A DNA stretch of 64,000 nt, from NCBI GenBank assembly GCA_900299185.1, contig OMIV01000071.1, positions 1 through 64,000 on the forward strand, in the 5' to 3' direction. This DNA is from Planctomycetaceae bacterium (GTDB lineage Bacteria > Planctomycetota > Planctomycetia > Planctomycetales > Planctomycetaceae). A model generated the notes under the pieces. That model saw nothing but the letters and a program-made list of their open reading frames with translations. It was not told where the DNA came from and searched no databases. Both the position numbers and the translations under genes were made by a program. Shown here one piece after another: positions 166 through 12,693 of the stretch. How positions within the stretch are numbered: the stretch's first letter is position 1; every line of letters begins with the position of its first letter.

Positions 166-501
166 TTTGCATATCAAGAACTTACTGTGGTGCTTTCGGT
201 AACCAGATTACCAATTCGAGCACGCGGTATGCGGCGCCTGACTCCAGGTTTTGAATTGACCTGCTCTACGCGAACCGCCTGATCTCAGAGCATCTCGAAG
301 CCTGCTGTTTCGAGAGATAACGCCATCCGATAGCTCTTCGCTGACGACGTTAGCAAAGATTCGCAGCGGTCAGTTCTACGCAATCAAAAAGTCCGCCGCC
401 GAAGGCTGCGATTCGCGGGCCTTGCATATAGCCTTCACCGCTCGGCAGCAGTGGCACAGGGCCAGGTCCATCAGCACGCGATCACCAGACAAGTGGCGGG
501 C
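166..501. other. Intergenic region, nothing recognised
   Basis: This stretch lies between the tRNA terminator and the TIR gene. I see no convincing short gene or structured RNA. It should contain the promoter of the TIR gene, but I could not fix -35/-10 boxes. Confidence 0.4.
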
Positions 502-3500
502 ATGAGCACACTCTTCATCAGTTACAGCACCAAAGACCGTGAGGTCTCGCAGTTAGTTTTCGACGCTCTCAAAGACATGGGCTATCAGCCGCCTTTCCGC
601 GACGACCATCCCGAATCCGGCATCCCCGCTGGTTCCGATTGGGAGCAAGTGCTGTATCAAAAGCTGAAGCAGTCGAAGGCGTTGATCGTCCTGTGCTCGC
701 GGAACTGGTTGCAGTCCAAGTGGTGCTTTGCCGAGTTGGCGTTTGCCGGAGCGCATGGCAAGCCGTTCTTTCCGGTGTTGATCGACGATGACCCAACGCT
801 GCAAGCCGAGATCCCCTCGATCCTCAGCAAGCGGCAAACCATCAGGCTCTCTGATGACAAATGGAAAGAGCGCCTGCGAGACGGATTGGCCGAAGCCAAG
901 CTTGCACCGCGTGATGATTTTCCGTGGCCCATTGAGGGTAAGGACGACTGCCCCTATCCCGGCCTGGAATCTTTCGAGGCTCATCATGCGGGCGTGTACT
1001 TCGGCAGAGACACTGAGATCGGCAAGCTCCGTGAAGAGCTTACGAAGATGGCGAACGGCACGGCGCCTCGCTTCTTGTATGTGGTTGGAGCCTCAGGCAG
1101 CGGCAAGTCGTCGCTGGTGAAGGCGGGTTTGTTGCCTCGACTGGATCAGAAGGAGCAGTCCGCGTGGCTCGTCTTCCCGGCCATTCGCTGGAACTTGATG
1201 CGGACTCAGGGCCGAGACTGGGCCGAGCAATTGGCTCACCTGTTGTTCGAGAAATGGCCCGACAAGCCCGACCGTCCGCGCGTGACGGAATTGCGAAAGC
1301 GTTACCTCGTCCAACCTCTCTCTGCCGAGCAGGCCAAAGATCCGCAGTTACTTGAGGCACACCAACGACAGTTAGCGCAAGCCGCCGATCGCTTCATCGA
1401 CGACACCAAAGAACTCCGGCGTCAGTGCGGTCGCCCCGATGCCTTGCCGTTGTTGGTGATCGATCAGTTCGAAGAGTTGTTGTCTCGGTCGAATGATCCG
1501 TCGGTGCAACCGTTCTTACAGTTTCTCGGACAAGTGATGTCCTCGGTCCGCACTCCGTGGTTGGGAATCGCGACGGTGCGCACCGACTATCTCACCGCCA
1601 TTCAAACTCGGCCTGAGTTGCTGGAGTGGAAAGACGCCACCGCGCTGTACTCGTTGCCGTTGATGACCGAGCGGCGTTTCGCCGAAGTCATTCGAGGCCC
1701 TGCTGAGCGAATGGGCATTCGCTTCGAGCCCGATAGCTTGGTCGAACGCATCGTGCATGACACCGGCACGCGCGACTCGTTGCCGTTGTTGGCCTATGCG
1801 TTGCGAGTCCTCTACGAGAAGTTTGGCAGCGACCGCAAATTCACCGCCGATGAGTACGAGCACGGCTTAGGCGGTCTACAAGGTTGCCTCACGAAGGTCG
1901 CCGACGAAGCAATGGCGTCGGCCAAGGAAGTCAACGGCGTCTCGGTAGCCGAGCAAGAGCCTCAGTTCCGTTTGGCTTTCACAACGCACTTAGCGCGGCT
2001 GAGTGAGAACGACCAGTTTGTGCGTCGCTCGGCGAAGTGGCAAGACCTCCCGCCCGCCGCTCATCCGTTGTTGCAAGCCTTCGTCGATGCGCGTCTGCTG
2101 ACCTCGCGCTCGATGAATCCGGACGACCCGAATTCTGAGCGAGTGCTTGAAGTCGCTCACGAAGCCTTGCTGCGTTCATGGCCGACGCTGACCAACTGGC
2201 TTAACAAGCGCCGAGAACTCTTGCGCTGGCGAGCCGACCTCGAACACGACCAACAACGCGCCGGCGGGGATAAGAAATGGTCCGGCCTGACCGCCCGCCA
2301 ATTCGCAACCGGCTCTGAACTCTCAACGCGCTACCAAAACGAACTCACCGCCCCCGAGCAGCAAGCCCTCTATCAATACGCCACCCGAGCCCACCGCCGT
2401 CGCCTTGTGACCTACGCCATCCTCGGCCTCTTCATGCTTATCTCCGGAGTTGCGTGGCTCTTTCAAGATGATGCCGTCACCAAGAAGCAAACCGCTGACA
2501 CCGCGACTAAAGACGCCATCGCAGCGAAGAAGGATGCAACCAAAGAACAACGCAAGGCCGAGCGAAACGCGAAGCGAGCCAAAGAACAGAAGGACCTTGC
2601 CAATCAGCAGAAAAAGCTCGCTGATCGCACGCTCTACACCGCCCAAGTGCGATTCGCGGAAGATGCTTGGAAGCGAGGCGATCGAGAGAAGGCGTTGGAG
2701 TACCTCCACCAAGCCCGCTGGGACCTGCGCGGCTGGGAGCACGACTACCTCTCTTCCAAGGTGGTACCCGCCACGTTTGTCGGCCACTCGAGCGCGGTGA
2801 GTAGCGTGAGTTTCAGCCCGGACGGGAAGCGGATCGTCAGCGGCAGCGGTGATGGCACGGTGAAGGTGTGGGATGCCGCGACGGGACAGGAGACGCTCAC
2901 GCTCAGAGGTCACTCGGGCACTGTGTTCAGCGTGAGTTTCAGCCCGGACGGGCAGCGGATCGTCAGCGGCAGCGCTGACAACACGGTGAAGGTGTGGGAT
3001 GCCGCGACGGGACAGGAGACGCTCACGCTCAAAGGTCACTCGAACTGGGTGAGTAGCGTGAGTTTCAGCCCGGACGGGAAGCGGATCGTCTCTGGCAGCG
3101 GTGAGCGAGATAAGCACGGGCGACCGAGTCAGGACTTGGTCTGGGATGCCGTAACGGGATTGCCGTTGAAGCCCGAAGCAGACGATGCCGAGTTGCTCAA
3201 ACCCGATGCTCCTCAGCGGACGCGAGTGAATGATCGCAGCGTCGAAGTCGACGAGGACGACGAACGCAAGTTTAACATCCAGCGGATCAGCACGGGCGAG
3301 GTGCTCTTCACGGGCTCTGATCCCTTCGGAGTCATCAGCCCGCAGTTCAGTCCTGATGGCCGGCGAGTCCTGACGGGCAACAATCGCGGCGAGGTGAAGG
3401 TTTGGTTGCAGGCGGCTCGGTCGGCTCCGCCGTTGGCTGCGGGGGCGAGTGAGTCGGTGACTTCTGAGGCTGACTCGGAGGAGGCCGATCTCACGAGTGA

Positions 3501-3663
3501 CGAAGTCGACGAGACGTCCAATGCTCTGCCTTCCGACGAGACCGGGCAGAGCACGATGACTCTCGTCTACTCGCTGGCCGGAGCCTATGTCGTGTTCTTG
3601 GGACTGCTCGCCTACAGCGCCGTCAGAGGTCCGAGTTCCAGTCGCCAGCAGCTCGGTGTCTGA
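502..3663 (+). CDS. TIR - STAND ATPase - membrane - WD40 protein
   Basis: Predicted signalling or conflict protein of 1053 residues. Order: TIR domain (about 1-130; begins STLFISYSTKD; candidate NAD-cleaving glutamate E78 in WCFAEL); a STAND NTPase of the nSTAND1 type (from about 155; Walker A GASGSGKSS near residue 196, Walker B LLVIDQFEELL near 320); a transmembrane helix (about 634-655) after an arginine-rich flank; a lysine-rich coiled coil; three WD40 repeats from about 760 plus one divergent repeat; an acidic stretch; and a second transmembrane helix (about 1019-1043). By the positive-inside rule TIR and ATPase are cytoplasmic and the WD40 part extracytoplasmic. TIR/STAND/WD40 combinations are known in bacterial immunity-type systems; the trigger here is unknown. 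The ATG at 502 fits the TIR start better than an upstream GTG at 451. Only four WD40 blades are visible, fewer than a usual seven-blade propeller. Confidence 0.85.
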   Translation: MSTLFISYSTKDREVSQLVFDALKDMGYQPPFRDDHPESGIPAGSDWEQVLYQKLKQSKALIVLCSRNWLQSKWCFAELAFAGAHGKPFFPVLIDDDPTLQAEIPSILSKRQTIRLSDDKWKERLRDGLAEAKLAPRDDFPWPIEGKDDCPYPGLESFEAHHAGVYFGRDTEIGKLREELTKMANGTAPRFLYVVGASGSGKSSLVKAGLLPRLDQKEQSAWLVFPAIRWNLMRTQGRDWAEQLAHLLFEKWPDKPDRPRVTELRKRYLVQPLSAEQAKDPQLLEAHQRQLAQAADRFIDDTKELRRQCGRPDALPLLVIDQFEELLSRSNDPSVQPFLQFLGQVMSSVRTPWLGIATVRTDYLTAIQTRPELLEWKDATALYSLPLMTERRFAEVIRGPAERMGIRFEPDSLVERIVHDTGTRDSLPLLAYALRVLYEKFGSDRKFTADEYEHGLGGLQGCLTKVADEAMASAKEVNGVSVAEQEPQFRLAFTTHLARLSENDQFVRRSAKWQDLPPAAHPLLQAFVDARLLTSRSMNPDDPNSERVLEVAHEALLRSWPTLTNWLNKRRELLRWRADLEHDQQRAGGDKKWSGLTARQFATGSELSTRYQNELTAPEQQALYQYATRAHRRRLVTYAILGLFMLISGVAWLFQDDAVTKKQTADTATKDAIAAKKDATKEQRKAERNAKRAKEQKDLANQQKKLADRTLYTAQVRFAEDAWKRGDREKALEYLHQARWDLRGWEHDYLSSKVVPATFVGHSSAVSSVSFSPDGKRIVSGSGDGTVKVWDAATGQETLTLRGHSGTVFSVSFSPDGQRIVSGSADNTVKVWDAATGQETLTLKGHSNWVSSVSFSPDGKRIVSGSGERDKHGRPSQDLVWDAVTGLPLKPEADDAELLKPDAPQRTRVNDRSVEVDEDDERKFNIQRISTGEVLFTGSDPFGVISPQFSPDGRRVLTGNNRGEVKVWLQAARSAPPLAAGASESVTSEADSEEADLTSDEVDETSNALPSDETGQSTMTLVYSLAGAYVVFLGLLAYSAVRGPSSSRQQLGV
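2782..3120 (+). repeat. Near-identical 126-bp tandem repeats encoding WD40 blades
   Basis: Units begin at 2782, 2908 and 3034, exactly 126 bp (42 codons) apart. They are nearly identical at the nucleotide level, including silent positions. The third unit breaks off inside the blade. Such identity points to recent duplication or gene conversion within the sensor part of the TIR-STAND gene. Confidence 0.9.
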
Positions 3664-3875: not shown

Positions 3876-6479
3876 CTACTTCTTGGTCGCCGTCTTTTTC
3901 ACAGCCGACTTCTTGGTGGTGGCCTTCTTGCCGCTGGAGCCGGAGGACTCGGGCTTGGGGCTAAGGATCTTCGACAAGCTGTTCCACAACGTCGGACACT
4001 TGAAGGCCACCGTGCCGCCACCGCGTTGGTCTTGAGCGTCGGTGAAGTTGATGTCGCCCACACAGACCCAGCGCGGTGTGTTGTCGCCGTTGTCGCGGTC
4101 AGAGATCGCGAGCTTGGCGTGGTCCACTTTCTCTGACCACGAATACTGCAGCTTGTCGTCCAACAGCCCCAGATCGATCGACTGCATGTTCTCGACTTTG
4201 TGAGTCTCTCCCTTTTCGACTTCCGGCGGGATCTTGGTGCCAGCGTTCTCCCACGTTTCCACGTCGATGTCTTCGTTGAGCACCACGCTGACTAGCTCGT
4301 TGTAGAAGTCCTTGGGGTTATCTGGCGTGGCATCAGGATCCACCTTGGGATTGCCCCACGCCTTGTTCTTGGCGATCGCGATGAAGTTCTCACCGCCGCG
4401 TGACTTGAACGGCACGCGTCCCGAATACGGCTTCAGTTTGCGACCCATCGAACCGTTGAGGTTCCTCATCAGTTGCAGTCGCGGATCGGTCGGAGTCGTT
4501 GTGCCATCGCCCAGCAACTTCGGCACGTTAGTCAGAGGCAGTTGATCAGTCGGGAAGCCGTAAGGTCGCTTCGCGGTCTTCACCAACAAGTCCGAAGCCA
4601 CATTCACATTCGGCCCATGAGCGTCATACATCAGTTGGGCGATGTTCTTAGCCGTGTCGGCATCCGCCAGTTGGATGCAGAGCATGGTCTGAGCCATCTT
4701 GTGACCCGTTGCGGGGTACTCGTATTGGTTGGTCAACGGGAACAGCGGCACGGAGTGAATCAGCCAGAACGCCGTGTTGTTGACGAGGTCAAATGCCAAC
4801 GCCCCTTTGCAGTGGCCTCGATCCGATGGCCCCGATCCCTTGAGCTCACCTTTCTTGGACTTCGTTTGGTGGTCCTCGTCGTTGTATGTGTACCAACCCA
4901 GGTTCTTGTTCTGCTTGGTGGAGGCACTGAAGAGTTGGCTGAACGTGTTGAAGAGAGCTCCCTTCGTCTGGTCGATGCCGTTGGGCGACAGCACCAACTT
5001 GGCGTCGTTGTTCTTGGCCATCTCTGAGTCGAAGTAGACGTACTGCGAACCATCAATCGGCTTGCCATCGGGCGTCTTAGACTCTGCCGACAGCTTGTAG
5101 ATGAACCACCAATCGACCGGCTTCCCCGCATCGCCAATGACGGTCAGCGTCTTGAGCTTGCCACCCGGCGCAACCGGCTGAGCGGCGGGCTTCACTGCCG
5201 TCGTTGTCTTGGCTGCCGTCGTCTTAGCAGTCGCCTTCTTCGCAGGCTTGGCTGGCGGAGTTACTACACGAGCCGTGGCTGCTGGTGCTGCTGCCGCTGA
5301 GGCCACGACACCTCGCGTACCCGGAACGGACTTCGGCAAGTTCAACGGCACTGCGAAGTTGAAGGCCAGCGTCGTGGGATCGGAATAAGTCAACGAGCCT
5401 TGGTGATTCACCAACGCCTTGATCACATCGTTCTGAGCCGGATCACTCCAATAACTTTGAGCGTCCTTCAGAGCCGTCTTGGGACTTTGATTGGGGAACT
5501 CGGCCATCGACTTCAGCCACCGCGCGACGACCAAGTCCTTCTTCATCTGAGCGGTCGCAGCGCGATGATTGACGATCTTGCCCGATCCAATTTTGTCGAA
5601 CCCCTGAGCCATCCCATAGAAGACATACGGATGCGTCGAAGCCATCACGGCGGTCTTCTTGCCGGGGATGATCTCCACAACGGTGACTTGGTTGTTCTTG
5701 AGCTTGGTGCCGTACAGCTTGTTGAAGATCGCCAGCGGATGGGCTCCATAAACCACGATCGGCACGGTGTAGCCCGAATCCTTCAGCGACACGTTCAACA
5801 ACAGCTTCACTTGCGATCGTTGATAGTCGGGGAAGTCCTGAATGGGGATCAGTCCAAAGTCGGGATCGCCCGCCTTCTTGGAACCTTGATCGTCCTCGGC
5901 CCCGATCGGCGTGGCATCCATTACCGTGTTGAAGAGCGGCAAGTCGCTGTCTGAAACGCCGTTAGCAGTCAGCAACTCCTCGCAGCGCACCGGCACGGGA
6001 TCGTCGAGGTAGTCTTGATTGGTCCTGAGCAATCGGATCGGCGGGGAATGGAAGAAGAGCAACGCCTTTTGATTGAGCATCGTCATGCCCAGCGGCAAGA
6101 AGAAGCTCCACGGCTCATACGGAGGATCCTTAGGCCCTGGTACGTCTGGGCTGGGATCCCAACGGCCATCTGCTTTGATTGTCGGTATGACGTTGGTCAG
6201 CGCGTCCCAACCATTGGTCAGAAACTGAGGCAACCGAACTGCGTACTCTTGGAGCTGAGCTTGAATGGCATCCGGTCCATCGAGCTTCAAGACATAGTTG
6301 CCACGAACCACCGACACGCTCGACTTCGCACCTTGGGCCTTCAATCCGTCTCGATCAAGAGTCATGTCAAACCAGTGCTTCACGGTTTGAGCCACGGTCC
6401 AATTCAAGCTGGGTGAGTTCTTAAACGAGTACAACTGCGACACGCGGTCTTCAGATCCAAGCGAGATACTGACAGGCAT
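3876..6479 (-). CDS. Two-part protein with C-terminal DNase II domain
   Basis: 867 residues. The C-terminal part (about 440-845) resembles deoxyribonuclease II, the acid endonuclease of the phospholipase D-like fold. It starts with GKPVDWWFIYKL, has RGHCKG with candidate catalytic H556 followed by FWLIHSVPLFP, a second HxK motif DHAKLAIS (H787), and near the end WVCVGDINFTDAQDQRGGGT, all in the order of animal DNase II. The N-terminal part (1 to about 395) is unlike anything I recognise. It is joined by an Ala/Pro/Lys/Thr-rich linker (about 395-437), and the protein ends in a lysine-rich tail. I see no signal peptide. The ATG follows an AGGAG at normal spacing. The GMC oxidoreductase gene lies 63 bp upstream on the same strand, so the two may be cotranscribed. 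DNase II is well known in animals and only scattered in bacteria. Confidence 0.8.
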   Translation of the reverse strand: MPVSISLGSEDRVSQLYSFKNSPSLNWTVAQTVKHWFDMTLDRDGLKAQGAKSSVSVVRGNYVLKLDGPDAIQAQLQEYAVRLPQFLTNGWDALTNVIPTIKADGRWDPSPDVPGPKDPPYEPWSFFLPLGMTMLNQKALLFFHSPPIRLLRTNQDYLDDPVPVRCEELLTANGVSDSDLPLFNTVMDATPIGAEDDQGSKKAGDPDFGLIPIQDFPDYQRSQVKLLLNVSLKDSGYTVPIVVYGAHPLAIFNKLYGTKLKNNQVTVVEIIPGKKTAVMASTHPYVFYGMAQGFDKIGSGKIVNHRAATAQMKKDLVVARWLKSMAEFPNQSPKTALKDAQSYWSDPAQNDVIKALVNHQGSLTYSDPTTLAFNFAVPLNLPKSVPGTRGVVASAAAAPAATARVVTPPAKPAKKATAKTTAAKTTTAVKPAAQPVAPGGKLKTLTVIGDAGKPVDWWFIYKLSAESKTPDGKPIDGSQYVYFDSEMAKNNDAKLVLSPNGIDQTKGALFNTFSQLFSASTKQNKNLGWYTYNDEDHQTKSKKGELKGSGPSDRGHCKGALAFDLVNNTAFWLIHSVPLFPLTNQYEYPATGHKMAQTMLCIQLADADTAKNIAQLMYDAHGPNVNVASDLLVKTAKRPYGFPTDQLPLTNVPKLLGDGTTTPTDPRLQLMRNLNGSMGRKLKPYSGRVPFKSRGGENFIAIAKNKAWGNPKVDPDATPDNPKDFYNELVSVVLNEDIDVETWENAGTKIPPEVEKGETHKVENMQSIDLGLLDDKLQYSWSEKVDHAKLAISDRDNGDNTPRWVCVGDINFTDAQDQRGGGTVAFKCPTLWNSLSKILSPKPESSGSSGKKATTKKSAVKKTATKK

Positions 6480-6542: not shown

Positions 6543-8063
6543 CTATCGGGATTTGATGAGATCAAACGCTTTCTCGCCGATCATGATCGACGGCGCGTTG
6601 GTGTTGCCGGATGTGACGTTCGGCATGATCGAGGCATCGGCAATGCGCAAGCCGTCGATGCCATGCACCTTCAACTCATGATCGACAACACACATCGGAG
6701 TGTGGCCCATCTTGCAGGTGCTCGTGGGATGAAAGTACGTCGAAACTGAATTGCGAATGAATTCGATCATGTCGGCTTGGCAGAGTCGGCCTGGCATGAC
6801 TTCGCGGGCACGAAATGCTCGAAACGCATCGCTCGCTCCGATCTCTCGACACAGCTCCACAGCGCACAACATCGCCTTCACGTCAGCGTCGCGCGACAAG
6901 AAGTTGACGTCGATGACAGGAGCAGTCGTGGGATTGGAACTCTTCAACTTCACCGTGCCACGAGACGTCGGTCGCACCACGCTGGGGCTGATCGTGTAGC
7001 ACTGGTTACTCGGCAGCCGCCACGCCAACTCGGGGGAAGCCAACGGGAACTCGATAAAGACTGGCTGGATGTCCGGCCCCAGCAACCTGGAATCCGACTT
7101 CCACCACAGCGTGGCCTCGGCGCCGTTGTTGCGAAGCGGTGGCAACGAGCCTTGGCACTCATAGACCAAACCTGCGAGCAGCGGATGGTCCTGCAAGTTG
7201 CGGCCCACTCCTTTGAGATTCGCTACAACGGGAATGCCGAGCTGCTGAAGGTCTTGCTCGGGACCAATGCCCGACAACAACAAGATGCGCGGCGAGCCAA
7301 TGACTCCCGCACTCAGAATGACTTCCGCCGTCGCCGTCGCTCGCTTCAGTTGGCCCTCGTGCCGAAACTCGATGCCAGTGCAACGCGAGCCTTCGAAGAC
7401 GACTCGATCGGTCTCAGCATGAGTCATCACAAACAGATTCGGTCGCGACAGCGCGGGCCGCAGATAGCCATCGACGACGCTGAAACGCTGACCGTTCTTC
7501 ACCGTGAAGTTGAAGTAACCAACGCCGAGCATGTCCGGGCCGTTGATGTCTTCCAGCACCGGCAAACCGACCGAGCGACCGCCTTCAATAAAGGCTGTCG
7601 CCAGAGGATTCGGATCAACGGGGGGACTGACATAGATCGGCCCGCCAGTGCCTCGCAGGTCGCTGGCCGGACCTTGCCAATCTTCAATCCGCTTAAACAG
7701 TGGCAGGACATCGGCCCAACTCCAACCAGGGCAACCCGCATAGGCCCAGCTATCAAAGTCCGTGCGATGTCCTCGCACCCAAGCATTGGCGTTATGGCTA
7801 TGGCAACCGCCCAGCATCTTGCCGCGCGGCACATGGTCCACTCTATTGAAACAACTTCGCAGCGGAGCCGTTTTCCAGCACCAATCAACGTCTCCATAAA
7901 AGAGCGTCGGCCACATGGTGGGATCTTTGACCGCAGGCAAATCGTCCGAGCCGCCACCTTCCAACAACAGGACGCGGCAATTGGGATCTTCCGAAAGCCG
8001 AGCCGCCAACACGCACCCCGCCGAACCGGCTCCGACAATGATGTAATCAAACGCAAACGACAT
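6543..8063 (-). CDS. GMC family FAD-dependent oxidoreductase
   Basis: 506 residues, the usual length for glucose-methanol-choline oxidoreductases, which oxidise alcohols with FAD. The N-terminus has the FAD-binding motif DYIIVGAGSAGC and the acidic end of the second strand in LLLEGGG. The C-terminal domain carries the active-site pair H445 (in YFHPTSTCKMG) and N489 (in SGNTNAPS). The substrate cannot be told from sequence; choline/alcohol dehydrogenase-like members are most similar in layout. No signal peptide is seen. The ATG at 8063 follows GAAGGAT and starts just before the FAD fold; an upstream in-frame start at 8099 is less likely. It is first of a probable two-gene unit with the DNase II gene. 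Confidence 0.9.
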   Translation of the reverse strand: MSFAFDYIIVGAGSAGCVLAARLSEDPNCRVLLLEGGGSDDLPAVKDPTMWPTLFYGDVDWCWKTAPLRSCFNRVDHVPRGKMLGGCHSHNANAWVRGHRTDFDSWAYAGCPGWSWADVLPLFKRIEDWQGPASDLRGTGGPIYVSPPVDPNPLATAFIEGGRSVGLPVLEDINGPDMLGVGYFNFTVKNGQRFSVVDGYLRPALSRPNLFVMTHAETDRVVFEGSRCTGIEFRHEGQLKRATATAEVILSAGVIGSPRILLLSGIGPEQDLQQLGIPVVANLKGVGRNLQDHPLLAGLVYECQGSLPPLRNNGAEATLWWKSDSRLLGPDIQPVFIEFPLASPELAWRLPSNQCYTISPSVVRPTSRGTVKLKSSNPTTAPVIDVNFLSRDADVKAMLCAVELCREIGASDAFRAFRAREVMPGRLCQADMIEFIRNSVSTYFHPTSTCKMGHTPMCVVDHELKVHGIDGLRIADASIMPNVTSGNTNAPSIMIGEKAFDLIKSR

Positions 8064-8250
8064 AGTTGATCCTTCGAGGTCATATTCCAGTGGCAGCACA
8101 AATTCTTACATCAGCTCGCGACGACGGTGACTCATCCAAACATCGCATCCATGAGTCTTAAGGACGAGACGGCTCCCAACATTCCGCGATGGCTGCATCA
8201 AGGTCTTCTCTCTGTTGGCGGTGATTTCGTTGTTGAAGTTTCAGGCACTC

Positions 8251-9531
8251 TCAGCCCTGTATGGATTGAGCTAAGGCCAAGGCTTCTCGCGTGTCGACGG
8301 TGTCTCGGCCTTCGGTGATTTGGTTGAGGATGGTGGTTAGTGCGGACTGCGCTTCGAGGGCTCTCGCGGCGGAGATCAGGTAACGAGCGAGGCTCACTGT
8401 TGATCGCAGTTCGTGGGACAACGAGCCTTGTTGCCGCGCGACTTCGATGGCTTTTCGGAAGTGAGACTCGGCCATGGGATCGTTCATGCGCAAAGCCACT
8501 TCGCCGCGCAGCCGATGCAAGTCGGGCAACGGAAAGCCCTCGGCAGTCGCGCGTGCAAAGTCTTCGGCTTGGATCAGTGCCGCTGCGGCGTCGGTCGGTC
8601 GATTCAGCGCCAACGCGACTTCAGCTTGCATGGCATAGAAGTACGACGACCCCAACTCTGACCCCTGAGCGCGCCACGCCACGATGCCTTGTCGAATGGC
8701 TTCGCACGCATTGGGATCTCGACCGGTGATGCCCAACGCCCAATGCTTCAGGACGTTTCCCCAGCCGATCCAGAATCGAAAGCCGTGCTCTTCCGACAAT
8801 GCGAGTGCTCGTTCCGCAGCCGCAAGCGTTGCGGGCACATCACGACGGAACTGATGCAACCACGTCGAGAAGCTCAGCGCGAGCGTGATTGTGAAGGGAT
8901 GCTGGAGTGCTTCGGCTTCCTCCAACGTCTGTCGAGATTGAGCCAACGCTTGCTCGGGAAATCCGCTTAGCAACAAGGCCCAAGACTTGTAGCTACCAGC
9001 CGCGATCCACGGATCGACGACGTCGTAACGATTGACCTTCGTCCGCAGTTCGGCGGTCGTCGGAGTCGACAGCACTTTGTCTAAGTGCGGCATCGCTGCG
9101 GAGTACTCGCCTTGATACACGAGCGGCCCAGCCACGGCTCGATGCGCGGCGACTATGAAGTCAGGCTCATGAGTTTGGTCTGCGATGCTCACCAACTGCT
9201 GACCAATCTCGCGAGCCTTCGCGTACTTGCCTTGCAGCATGTAGTACCGGAAGAGGCCGTACAGAATCGGGAACAACTCGGTCGTGAGTTTGAGTTCCTG
9301 ACACAGCGCGAACGCGCGGGCGTAGTTCTCTTCGACTTCGGGTGCGCTGTATCCCACGATCGACTGCAACGGCACACCGAGCATCACATGCAGCTCGATC
9401 TCTAACAGATGGCGTTCGCGAGATTCCGGCAGAGCCTTGATGGATTCCAGACCCGAACGAATCTGTTGAATGGCCTCGCGATAGGCGTAGCGTCGCAACG
9501 ATCGTTCGCCCGCGCGCTGCCAGTACTTCAC
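8251..9531 (-). CDS. TPR C-terminal part of a split kinase-cyclase-ATPase protein
   Basis: 426 codons of helical TPR-like repeats, beginning KYWQRAGERSLRR, which is how the TPR region of adenylate cyclase/AAA-ATPase proteins normally continues after the ATPase. The frame is the same as the gene upstream (9535-12693). Only a TGA at 9535-9537, one GCC codon and the GTG at 9531 separate them. It is therefore the tail of one ancestral gene. It may still be made by re-initiation at the GTG, since stop and start are 3 nt apart, or it may be a pseudogene fragment. No independent Shine-Dalgarno site is obvious. Confidence 0.75.
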   Translation of the reverse strand: MKYWQRAGERSLRRYAYREAIQQIRSGLESIKALPESRERHLLEIELHVMLGVPLQSIVGYSAPEVEENYARAFALCQELKLTTELFPILYGLFRYYMLQGKYAKAREIGQQLVSIADQTHEPDFIVAAHRAVAGPLVYQGEYSAAMPHLDKVLSTPTTAELRTKVNRYDVVDPWIAAGSYKSWALLLSGFPEQALAQSRQTLEEAEALQHPFTITLALSFSTWLHQFRRDVPATLAAAERALALSEEHGFRFWIGWGNVLKHWALGITGRDPNACEAIRQGIVAWRAQGSELGSSYFYAMQAEVALALNRPTDAAAALIQAEDFARATAEGFPLPDLHRLRGEVALRMNDPMAESHFRKAIEVARQQGSLSHELRSTVSLARYLISAARALEAQSALTTILNQITEGRDTVDTREALALAQSIQG

Positions 9532-9534
9532 GGC

Positions 9535-12500
9535 TCAATCAGGCAACCCTGCTTCCGAGAAATGCTGAGCCACGACTTCGGGCTCTTTCTCACAAACATC
9601 AGGGAAGTGAGCATCAAGCGCGGCCGCCGTCTGCCCGTGAAACTCTTGCCGCTTGGCTTTGACCAACGAATTGTAGGCCGCGTCCTGCAACAGCGCGTGC
9701 TTGAATTGATAACGCTGCCGCGGCGCTCGACCTTGCACAAAGAGCAGTTCGGCAGCGACGAGCTTGTCGAGTTCCTTTTGAAGTTCGTCATCCGTCGTCG
9801 CCATGCCGGTTGAGGCCAGAGGTTGGGCCGCCGCGCGAATCAGTTCGAACGGGAATGTCCGTCCGATGGTGGCCGCGAGCTGCACCACAGCCAGATCGCA
9901 GTCGATGCGATCGAGCCGCGACATCAGCATGTCTTGCAGCGAAGCCGGGATCTGCTTGATGGCATTGATGCCCGAGATCGACGAGTCGCCGTCGTTCTTC
10001 ATGACATCGGCCTCAACGACCATCTGCGTGTATTCCTCAACGAACAATGGCACGCCGTCGGTGCGTTCGATGATTTGCTCCACCAACGACATCGGCAGCC
10101 GACGGTGTGCTTTTTGTTCCATCATCTCTTGAATCTGGCGCTTCGTCAGACGATTCAACGCCAGATTGGTTTGATGAGCTTTGCTCTTCCACGGCGTTTC
10201 AAACTCAGGACGGAACGTCAACAGCGTGAGAATGCGGTCGTTCAAACCTCGATCAACCAATTGCTCGACGAACTGCAGCGTCGACGGATCGACCCAATGC
10301 AGATCCTCGATCACGAACAACAGCGGATGCCGGAGTGACAATTCTTGCAGCCAATCCAAGAGCAGGGCGTTTGTTTGTTCGTGTTGAACTTGCGGCGGCA
10401 GGTTGAGTTCCGGGTATTGCCCCTGAAGCGGGATCGATAGCAACGAAGCCAGCAATGCGATCTCGTGATCTCCGTCGAGATTCAGCCCATTCAAATGAGT
10501 GACGAGCTTCTCCAACTGAGTGGCCGCTGAGTCATCGCGATCAAAGCCCAGCAAGCGTTCGAAGCACTCGATCGCGGGATACAGACTGCTGCTTTGCCGT
10601 TGCTGCGACGATCGCCATTCGACAATCGGATCGCCGTTGCCGTCGGACTGTTCGAGAACATGACGCTTCAAGGCATGTACGAGTCGCGACTTGCCCAGTC
10701 CCGCCTCGCCGATGATCAGCACGACCTGCCCCATGCCTTCTGCGGCTTGCTCCCAACGCTCTTGCAGCAACCCGACTTCACGATCGCGACCGATCAACGG
10801 AGTCAGCGCCGCAGGTTCGGCGAGGTCTACTCGACTGGCTGCCGATCGTTCGCGCACAACGCGGTACAGTGAGACTGGCCCCGGCAGCCCTTTGATGCGT
10901 TGTTGTCCGAGCGTCTCTGTTTCAAAGAGTCCTTTGAGCAACCGATGAGTTTGCTCGGAGATCATGACGACGCCGAGTTCCGCAGCTTGCTCAAGTCGCG
11001 ATGTATAGTTCCGCACGGTCCCAACCACTGAGACGGAGGACATGGAGTCGTCGCCACTGGCTTGAGTCTCGACAACTGCAACGTCGGTGTGCATCACGAC
11101 TCGAGCCCCCAAGGGCATCTTCATTGTCCGCCACAGGTGCTTGGCATCATTCATCCGTTGGAGCAGCGCCAGTCCGAATCGCAAAGCTCGCGGCACCGAG
11201 TCTTCATAGGCCAACGGAAACCCGAAGCAGATCGCGACACCATCGTCGGTGTCATTCAGCACCGAGCCTCCGAATTCGCTCGCCAGTTCGCGGCCAAACT
11301 TTTGAAACGCCTGCAACAAGGCAGCTTGCTCATCATCGTCTTGCGACTCTTGAATCGCTTCATTCTCGAAGACGTCGCAGCCACAACTGGCGATGGTGAC
11401 CTGCCGACGTTGCGAACCCAATCGTCGACGACTGAGTGCCGCTGAATTGAACGCCGACTCCTGAGGCACCGGTGCGTCCGCGCGCGGTTGCTGAATCGTC
11501 GCCGATCGAATGTGGGCATCTGTCTTGGCCGAGTCTTCGTCAGCCTTGTCCGAAACCTCGGGACTCTTGCCGGCATACTTCACTGTGCCCGGCATCTGTG
11601 ATTGGCTGGGACTCTTGAGGTCGATGCTCACGATCGGCTCGGACGGTCCAGCCGAGGCCAGCAATGTCCGTAAGTCATGAGCCATATCATCGGCGGTCGT
11701 GTAGCGCTCTCTCAGCGACTTCGCCATCGCCTTCAGGCAGATGCGTTCCAGCTCGGCAGGCATCTGGCGATTGAGTTGCCGCGGCGGCTGCGGTTCGTCT
11801 TCTTGAACCTGTCGCAATAATTCCACCACGCTCGACGAATCAAACGGCACTCGGCCAACCAACATGCGATAGAGAATGACGCCGAGCGAATAAATGTCAG
11901 TCCGCCCGTCGATGCGATGCCCCGCTCCCGAAGCTTGTTCGGGCGACATGTACTGCGGCGTGCCAGAGATATCCCCGCGCGACGTCCCTTCGGCTCGATG
12001 CGAGTCGCTCAACGACAAACCAAAGTCCACGATCACCGGCTGGTTGTCCGCAGTCATGATGACGTTGGCCGGCTTCAGATCTCGATGGACCGTGCGGTGA
12101 GAGTGAGCATGAGCCAGCGCGTCAGCGATCGACGCGCAGATCTGAGCCGATCGCTTCCAATCAGGCTGCGTCTTCTTCAGCCACTTGGACAAGCTTGGTC
12201 CGTCCACAAAGTCCGAAATGATGTAGCACCGACCGGAATCCGACACGACATCCAACACACCCACAATGCCAGCATGCTTGAGCTGCGCGAGCTGCCGAGC
12301 TTCCGTCAGAAACTCGCGTTCAACGACCTTGTCGGACACATCCAGCCGCGGCGCTTTGATGGCCACTTTGCGACGCAACGTCTCATCAAAAGCCAACAAG
12401 ACTTTGCCGAAGGCCCCCTTACCAAGCTCACCTTGAATGACATAACGACCGATCCGAGTCAGTGGCTCGTCTGCCGGCGTTGAGGTTGTTGCCGAGGAAT

Positions 12501-12693
12501 TCTGAACTTGGGGCGAAGCCGGTCGTGCCGGTTCTGGCGTGAGATCTTGCAGCGCTGGTTGCCCGGCTTGTGCGGCTAGTGGCGATATGAACGTCTCGAC
12601 CAAGTGCGCCGAATTTGAATCGGCGATCGGTGCTTGCTCTGGCTGAGTAACCGGCAAAGAGCGGTTAAGAGGATCGTTCACAAGGTGTCCCAA
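9535..12693 (-). CDS. Ser/Thr kinase - cyclase-like - AAA ATPase protein, stopped in frame
   Basis: 1052 residues. After a low-complexity N-terminus come a Hanks-type kinase (about 84-345: GKGAFGKV, K113 in VAIK, HRDLKPANV near 200, DFG, SPE), a class III nucleotide cyclase-like domain (about 435-620) and a MalT/AAA_16-type ATPase (Walker A GEAGLGKSR near 661, Walker B VIEDLHWVD near 791). In the cyclase part the usual CDL of the first metal site reads SCGCD, so activity is doubtful, although the DDG of the second strand and an asparagine/arginine pair remain. The frame ends at a TGA where homologous proteins run on into TPR repeats; those repeats follow in the same frame (8251-9531). The TTG at 12693 is the longest start; a GTG at 12681 is an alternative. 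Confidence 0.85.
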   Translation of the reverse strand: MGHLVNDPLNRSLPVTQPEQAPIADSNSAHLVETFISPLAAQAGQPALQDLTPEPARPASPQVQNSSATTSTPADEPLTRIGRYVIQGELGKGAFGKVLLAFDETLRRKVAIKAPRLDVSDKVVEREFLTEARQLAQLKHAGIVGVLDVVSDSGRCYIISDFVDGPSLSKWLKKTQPDWKRSAQICASIADALAHAHSHRTVHRDLKPANVIMTADNQPVIVDFGLSLSDSHRAEGTSRGDISGTPQYMSPEQASGAGHRIDGRTDIYSLGVILYRMLVGRVPFDSSSVVELLRQVQEDEPQPPRQLNRQMPAELERICLKAMAKSLRERYTTADDMAHDLRTLLASAGPSEPIVSIDLKSPSQSQMPGTVKYAGKSPEVSDKADEDSAKTDAHIRSATIQQPRADAPVPQESAFNSAALSRRRLGSQRRQVTIASCGCDVFENEAIQESQDDDEQAALLQAFQKFGRELASEFGGSVLNDTDDGVAICFGFPLAYEDSVPRALRFGLALLQRMNDAKHLWRTMKMPLGARVVMHTDVAVVETQASGDDSMSSVSVVGTVRNYTSRLEQAAELGVVMISEQTHRLLKGLFETETLGQQRIKGLPGPVSLYRVVRERSAASRVDLAEPAALTPLIGRDREVGLLQERWEQAAEGMGQVVLIIGEAGLGKSRLVHALKRHVLEQSDGNGDPIVEWRSSQQRQSSSLYPAIECFERLLGFDRDDSAATQLEKLVTHLNGLNLDGDHEIALLASLLSIPLQGQYPELNLPPQVQHEQTNALLLDWLQELSLRHPLLFVIEDLHWVDPSTLQFVEQLVDRGLNDRILTLLTFRPEFETPWKSKAHQTNLALNRLTKRQIQEMMEQKAHRRLPMSLVEQIIERTDGVPLFVEEYTQMVVEADVMKNDGDSSISGINAIKQIPASLQDMLMSRLDRIDCDLAVVQLAATIGRTFPFELIRAAAQPLASTGMATTDDELQKELDKLVAAELLFVQGRAPRQRYQFKHALLQDAAYNSLVKAKRQEFHGQTAAALDAHFPDVCEKEPEVVAQHFSEAGLPD

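Follow-up and report, generated by a model that had tools for sequence, protein, structure and literature searches.

A planctomycete gene joins, in one chain of 867 residues, a domain predicted to have the fold of the UDG superfamily to a nuclease domain of the DNase II family. The gene (3876..6479, minus strand) lies near one end of the window, by which we mean the whole stretch of 64,000 nucleotides of Planctomycetaceae bacterium DNA that was analysed. The two domains are also encoded near each other in four bacterial groups, in clusters that carry a signalling protein, and these clusters suggest an undescribed DNA-processing module. With a confidence somewhat short of even, we read the protein as a nuclease coupled to a domain that reads or excises bases, and controlled by signalling, a reading for which we infer DNA binding, the base step, the coupling and the control. 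No paper on this fusion was found in a literature that leaves out most subscription journals.

The fusion gene and its DNase II domain

The fusion gene is a single uninterrupted open reading frame, with GGAG standing 7 nt 5' of its ATG. On the minus strand it encodes an N-terminal domain (residues 1-385; 5325..6479), an Ala/Pro/Lys-rich linker (residues 386-440; 5160..5324), where the pLDDT of the model falls below 50 from residue 388, a DNase II domain (residues 449-839; 3963..5135) and a Ser/Lys-rich C-terminal tail (3879..3962). The original prediction of a fusion with an Ala/Pro/Lys linker stands, with a Lys-rich tail in addition, and the fusion recurs at three other loci (L010, L011 and L052).

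The C-terminal half had been proposed to be a DNase II, and a profile search agrees. Residues 449-839 match DNase_II (PF03265) with an E value of 8.1e-65 and 219.6 bits against a cut-off of 23, along positions 4-320 of the 326 in the profile (221 bits in the genome search), and phmmer matched the solved DNase II 5i3e/5unb at 1.6e-42. The PDB entry itself names that molecule putative deoxyribonuclease-2; it comes from Burkholderia thailandensis. All five motifs quoted in the original prediction occur in the order given, with VDWWFIYK at 455, RGHCKG at 554, HSVPLFP at 575, DHAK at 786 and RGGGT at 819, the histidines H556 and H787 among them. The first HxK motif, H556-C-K558 (4806..4814, minus strand), pairs with HTK of 5i3e and the second, H787-A-K789 (4113..4121, minus strand), with HAK, and all four residues (H556/K558 and H787/K789) are invariant in the 47 bacterial DNase IIs aligned (47/47). 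Judged by profile and residues, the C-terminal half is a member of the DNase II family with its predicted catalytic residues kept.

As had been noticed, no signal peptide is visible on the fusion, nor is one on nearly all bacterial DNase IIs. In these proteins the DWWF motif begins a median of 12 residues from the start, so that bacterial DNase IIs normally have no signal peptide. On this point the original prediction needs correcting: many bacteria have DNase IIs of this signal-less kind, and the structure of one is solved (5i3e/5unb). The Burkholderia enzyme shares with the window protein the whole PF03265 domain, both HxK motifs and the lack of a signal peptide, but it is a stand-alone protein of ~360 aa without a UDG-fold partner, whereas the window protein has insertions, the linker and the Lys-rich tail.

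An N-terminal domain of predicted UDG-superfamily fold

The N-terminal half had been described as an unrecognised new domain. It has no significant match in Pfam, NCBIfam, PADLOC, PHROGs or PDB sequences, and two N-domain profiles matched nothing among the PDB sequences; in this sense the description was right, but the predicted fold is that of the UDG superfamily. The structure prediction suggested for this half, made with AlphaFold2 from a 15-sequence alignment, gave a model (pLDDT 85.5, pTM 0.87) in which the UDG-superfamily fold takes up residues ~78-332 behind an N-terminal extension of ~75 residues. UdgX was the best Foldseek match (E 2.4e-3, prob 1.00), and VIA-align superposed the model on family-4 UDG (4zbx/4zby) with a Z score of 12.6 over 185-187 residues at 3.2 A. 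Nearly all of the best 50 VIA rows are UDG-superfamily entries (family 4, UdgX, TDG and others), one exception being an entry for a phage DNA polymerase (9qhs, Z 8.8). When a diverged relative of 341 residues (L081, 27% identity) was modelled as well, the pTM was 0.87, the Z score to family-4 UDG 14.5 and the best Foldseek E value 5.8e-4; some sequences occur in the alignments behind both models, which are therefore not wholly independent of each other. In the N-domain model, strands and helices follow one another as in UDGs. The possibility that the N domain is a degenerate DNase II half was rejected, as the fold search returns UDG.

Sequence comparison places the domain at a distance from known UDGs. 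The UDG profile PF03167 does not match it, an hhalign comparison with eleven planctomycete family-4 UDGs yielded a weak collinear profile alignment (P 0.0011, prob 20%), and profile-profile comparison with UNG and UDGb was not informative. The conserved residues of the N domain fall at UDG pocket positions, namely HxPP, DxxPIxA and HP. Where UDGs have motif A (G-x-x-P-[GAY], including a catalytic D, E or N), at the end of strand 140-143, alignments and model DSSP put H144-x-P146-P147 (6039..6050, minus strand), a register that is itself deduced; HxPP stands there instead of the motif, with the second Pro kept and without acid or Asn, except for a D at the first position in L133. Asp188 (5916..5918, minus strand), invariant in 14 of 14 aligned sequences and located by model DSSP at the C-terminal end of the second strand (185-188), probably sits where UDGs have their base-reading Asn, in a register derived from strand ends; the weak alignment of profiles with family-4 UDGs places it 3 residues away. 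His283-Pro284 (5628..5633, minus strand) occupies the place of motif B (HPS); hhalign pairs it with the family-4 HPS, and its His is present in 14/14.

Compared with the UDG superfamily (family 4 UDG, UdgX, TDG, UNG and SMUG1), the N domain is alike in its fold over ~185 residues, in strand/helix order and in the motif-B-like HP. It differs in having HxPP for GEAPG/GQDPY, Asp probably for Asn, N- and C-terminal extensions and no PF03167 match. On the two predicted structures, the N domain is a diverged branch of the UDG fold and not a new fold. Because the motif-A acid is missing, we call it UDG-folded rather than a UDG and do not claim UDG membership. A divergent UDG-family protein without the usual GxxPG motif was also seen in a relative genome (L147 258-950, minus strand).

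The same differences raise another explanation, in which the UDG-fold domain no longer acts chemically on DNA and instead serves as a scaffold or binds some other partner, leaving the DNase II half as the sole enzyme. It would account for the missing motif-A acid and the lack of a PF03167 match, and for exported relatives whose genomes have no DNase II. The pocket positions, however, are where conservation lies, and their residues persist in the exported members save for the D that replaces the first H in L133; we regard a pure scaffold as unlikely.

Relatives and gene neighbourhood

Relatives were found by scanning genome contigs with the whole fusion protein. Fused forms occur in the window, in a member of Verrucomicrobiales (L010) and, with broken reading frames, in two of Planctomycetaceae (L011 and L052). 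Among fused planctomycete copies with broken frames, those at L134 (9712-11401) and L090 (56-1491) reflect decay or assembly error, and the former is without the first half of the DNase II. An unfused N-domain gene directly adjoins the DNase II gene in a gammaproteobacterial MAG (L053), lies ~2 kb from it in Phycisphaera (L025), and is found near it as a separate gene in five Bacteroidota loci (Gillisia/Algoriphagus). In the N-domain tree, the fused forms make up one clade (100/100) nested in a clade (100/99) with the unfused L053 and L025, so that a single fusion of a neighbouring pair is the simplest reading.

In the Planctomycetota samples, the N domain was detected in 2/392 genomes and DNase II in 2/294, and the two pairs coincide, the genome of the window belonging to them; overall co-occurrence is biased, since most N-domain genomes were reached via the fusion query. 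Two gammaproteobacterial genomes found by the N-domain profile alone are without DNase II. Three gammaproteobacterial UDG-fold relatives, L132 (8064-9473, minus strand), L085 (9190-10524, minus strand) and L133 (8784-10142, plus strand), carry a lipobox or Sec signal, two of their genomes being without DNase II, and these exported proteins argue against a simple intracellular role. The L132 lipoprotein adjoins gshB and yqgE-yqgF-pyrR-pyrB-pyrC genes, as named by eye. No N domain was found on phages, viral contigs or plasmids, and one Burkholderia plasmid carries a lone DNase II.

Upstream of the fusion, at 63 bp and on the same strand, lies a GMC oxidoreductase gene (6543..8099, minus strand), the oxidoreductase neighbour already noted in the original prediction. 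Its product is 62% identical to the GMC protein of the L010 cluster; a GMC gene is also present in L025, and a distant one in L053. Beyond it, a regulator with Ser/Thr kinase, nucleotide cyclase, AAA_16 and TPR parts (8251..12693, minus strand) is encoded in two ORFs (9535-12693 and 8251-9531) and is 36% identical to the cyclase/AAA protein of L010 over 1,058 aligned columns. Both the GMC gene and the kinase/cyclase/AAA regulator recur at relatives, and the fusion is part of a recurrent gene cluster. An in-frame TGA (9535-9537, minus strand) divides the kinase/cyclase/AAA part of the regulator (1052 aa) from the TPR part (426 aa). In L010 the relative is encoded by an uninterrupted frame, and the TGA of the window may mark a broken gene, an assembly error or a real feature.

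The window order of kinase/cyclase/AAA, GMC and fusion has counterparts in other lineages. L010 has ALDH, cyclase/AAA, an N-domain paralogue, GMC, an alpha/beta hydrolase and the fusion; L025 has cyclase/AAA, GMC, DNase II, a phosphoesterase and the N domain; and in Bacteroidota the genes run GGACT, a protein of 238 aa, a kinase/AAA/GAF/cyclase protein of 1,800 aa, GshB, DNase II, a GshA-like protein, HAD and the N domain, two Algoriphagus having in addition a PF04185 phosphoesterase and another, smaller N-domain gene upstream. The recurrent neighbours are kinase/AAA/nucleotide-cyclase regulators, GMC oxidoreductases, aldehyde dehydrogenases, glutathione enzymes and PF04185 phosphoesterases, and each of the two deep branches of the N-domain tree includes loci with kinase or cyclase/AAA proteins. 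A minus-strand ORF in L025 (1907-3508) was set aside as the shadow of the GMC gene.

Opposite the fusion, and convergent with it, the window encodes a TIR - nSTAND1 - WD40 protein of 1070 aa (451-3663, plus strand). It had been offered as context for the fusion; the gene is indeed present and opposite, but it was not found at the relatives' loci examined, and we rejected it as a partner. Also set aside were the repeat-rich f7 and the PNP_UDP_1-like f19, which lie near some DNase II genes and neither of which is shared with the N-domain clusters. The f7 protein is a 585-aa Gly/Asn-rich, repeat-like protein without a Pfam match near gammaproteobacterial DNase II (L030 5913-7670, with relatives in 9 loci). 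In Saprospiraceae, the gene directly after DNase II encodes a protein of 949 aa that weakly matches nucleoside phosphorylase (L012 9075-11924, with relatives in L013, L026 and L041). Six gammaproteobacterial DNase II loci (L020, L022, L032, L043, L047 and L048) have GGACT, a 238-aa protein without a Pfam match, a kinase/AAA/cyclase protein and a PF04185 phosphoesterase; the N domain was searched for in these six genomes and not found.

A possible mechanism and the roles it could serve

In the coupled reading, the N domain would probably flip out and read, or excise, a particular base, and Asp188, if it stands in place of the uracil-reading Asn of UDGs, would favour a cytosine-type base. Human UNG with N204D reportedly gains cytosine-excising activity. 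Joined in a single chain, the two domains would share their DNA, whose backbone the DNase II domain with both HxK motifs would then cut, while the Lys-rich linker and tail would keep the protein attached to it. The presence of a kinase/AAA/nucleotide-cyclase protein in the same string of genes suggests a switch, to which the expression or activity of the fusion is probably linked. The coupled reading draws support from the profile match and catalytic residues of the DNase II half, the UDG-type fold in both models, recurrent linkage and a single fusion origin. It is weakened by the absent motif-A acid, the PF03167 and PDB sequence searches without a match, the exported relatives, and several partners (GSH synthesis, GMC, ALDH) whose chemistry is not directed at DNA. 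The classical acid activity of DNase II family enzymes also fits the cytoplasm poorly.

Three further explanations are roles that such a coupled protein could serve, and so overlap with it. The first is stress-linked DNA repair or clean-up, in which the GMC, aldehyde dehydrogenase and glutathione enzymes would handle oxidants or aldehydes and the UDG-fold/DNase II pair would remove damaged bases and DNA. GshA, GshB and HAD in the five Bacteroidota loci, GGACT in 11/51 DNase II loci, ALDH in L010 and L053, GMC in the window and three relatives, and the L132 relative beside gshB all fit this role. The oxidoreductase and GSH sets, however, were never seen in one locus, some relatives are exported, and DNase II is a degradative nuclease rather than an AP-site enzyme, so we give this role only a small chance.

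The second role is phage defence against modified, cytosine-type bases, for which glycosylase precedents exist. Brig1, a UDG-superfamily glycosylase, excises alpha-glucosyl-hmC from T4 DNA with Glu147 in place of the usual Asn, showing that this superfamily can defend against phages with modified cytosine (PMC11078745). By analogy, the UDG-fold domain would excise the base, DNase II would cut, and the kinase/cyclase/AAA protein would gate the response. The N domain resembles Brig1, as that protein is described, in its superfamily fold and in an invariant Asp that may sit where the base-reading Asn is usual; unlike the fusion, Brig1 is a stand-alone gene, often in defence islands, without a nuclease domain (PMC11078745). 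Another diverged glycosylase of the UDG superfamily, Brig3/BapA, works together with an enzyme encoded in its own operon, although that partner is a glucosyl hydrolase, not a nuclease (preprint PMC13160076). A patchy distribution across phyla, and cyclase, kinase and STAND proteins of kinds common in defence, favour this role. Against it, PADLOC gave no specific match in the window, only generic kinase, cyclase and TIR ones, and the rest of the window looks by eye like ordinary chromosome with no defence island; the convergent TIR-STAND gene is the one defence-like neighbour. The exported relatives, the GSH and oxidoreductase partners, and the lack of any N-domain match in phages, with only a lone DNase II on one plasmid, make defence a doubtful, rather improbable role.

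A more specific version, a single-chain base-directed restriction enzyme in which a new branch of UDG-fold glycosylases reads modified cytosine, DNase II destroys DNA so marked and a kinase/AAA/nucleotide-cyclase receptor acts as the switch, with the same module present as separate genes in Bacteroidota and Gammaproteobacteria, would be quite improbable in our estimate. The third role is a degradative set for DNA outside the cell or freed on lysis, in which DNase II, PF04185 phosphoesterase, HAD phosphatase and the UDG-fold protein would yield phosphate or nutrients. The phosphoesterase is present in 13/51 DNase II loci and adjoins the N domain in L025, L086, L133 and Bacteroidota loci. This role would suit the exported relatives but appears equally improbable, given that the fusion, nearly all bacterial DNase IIs and the phosphoesterases examined have no signal peptide and that Lys-rich tails suit DNA binding inside the cell.

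A family without any annotation receives a predicted fold, UDG-like with an unusual pocket, and bacterial DNase II receives a recurrent genomic context across several phyla. A small gene set is also named that lends itself to direct tests of its substrate. Should the N domain prove to excise a base that is modified or damaged, the protein would be a glycosylase joined to its own nuclease.
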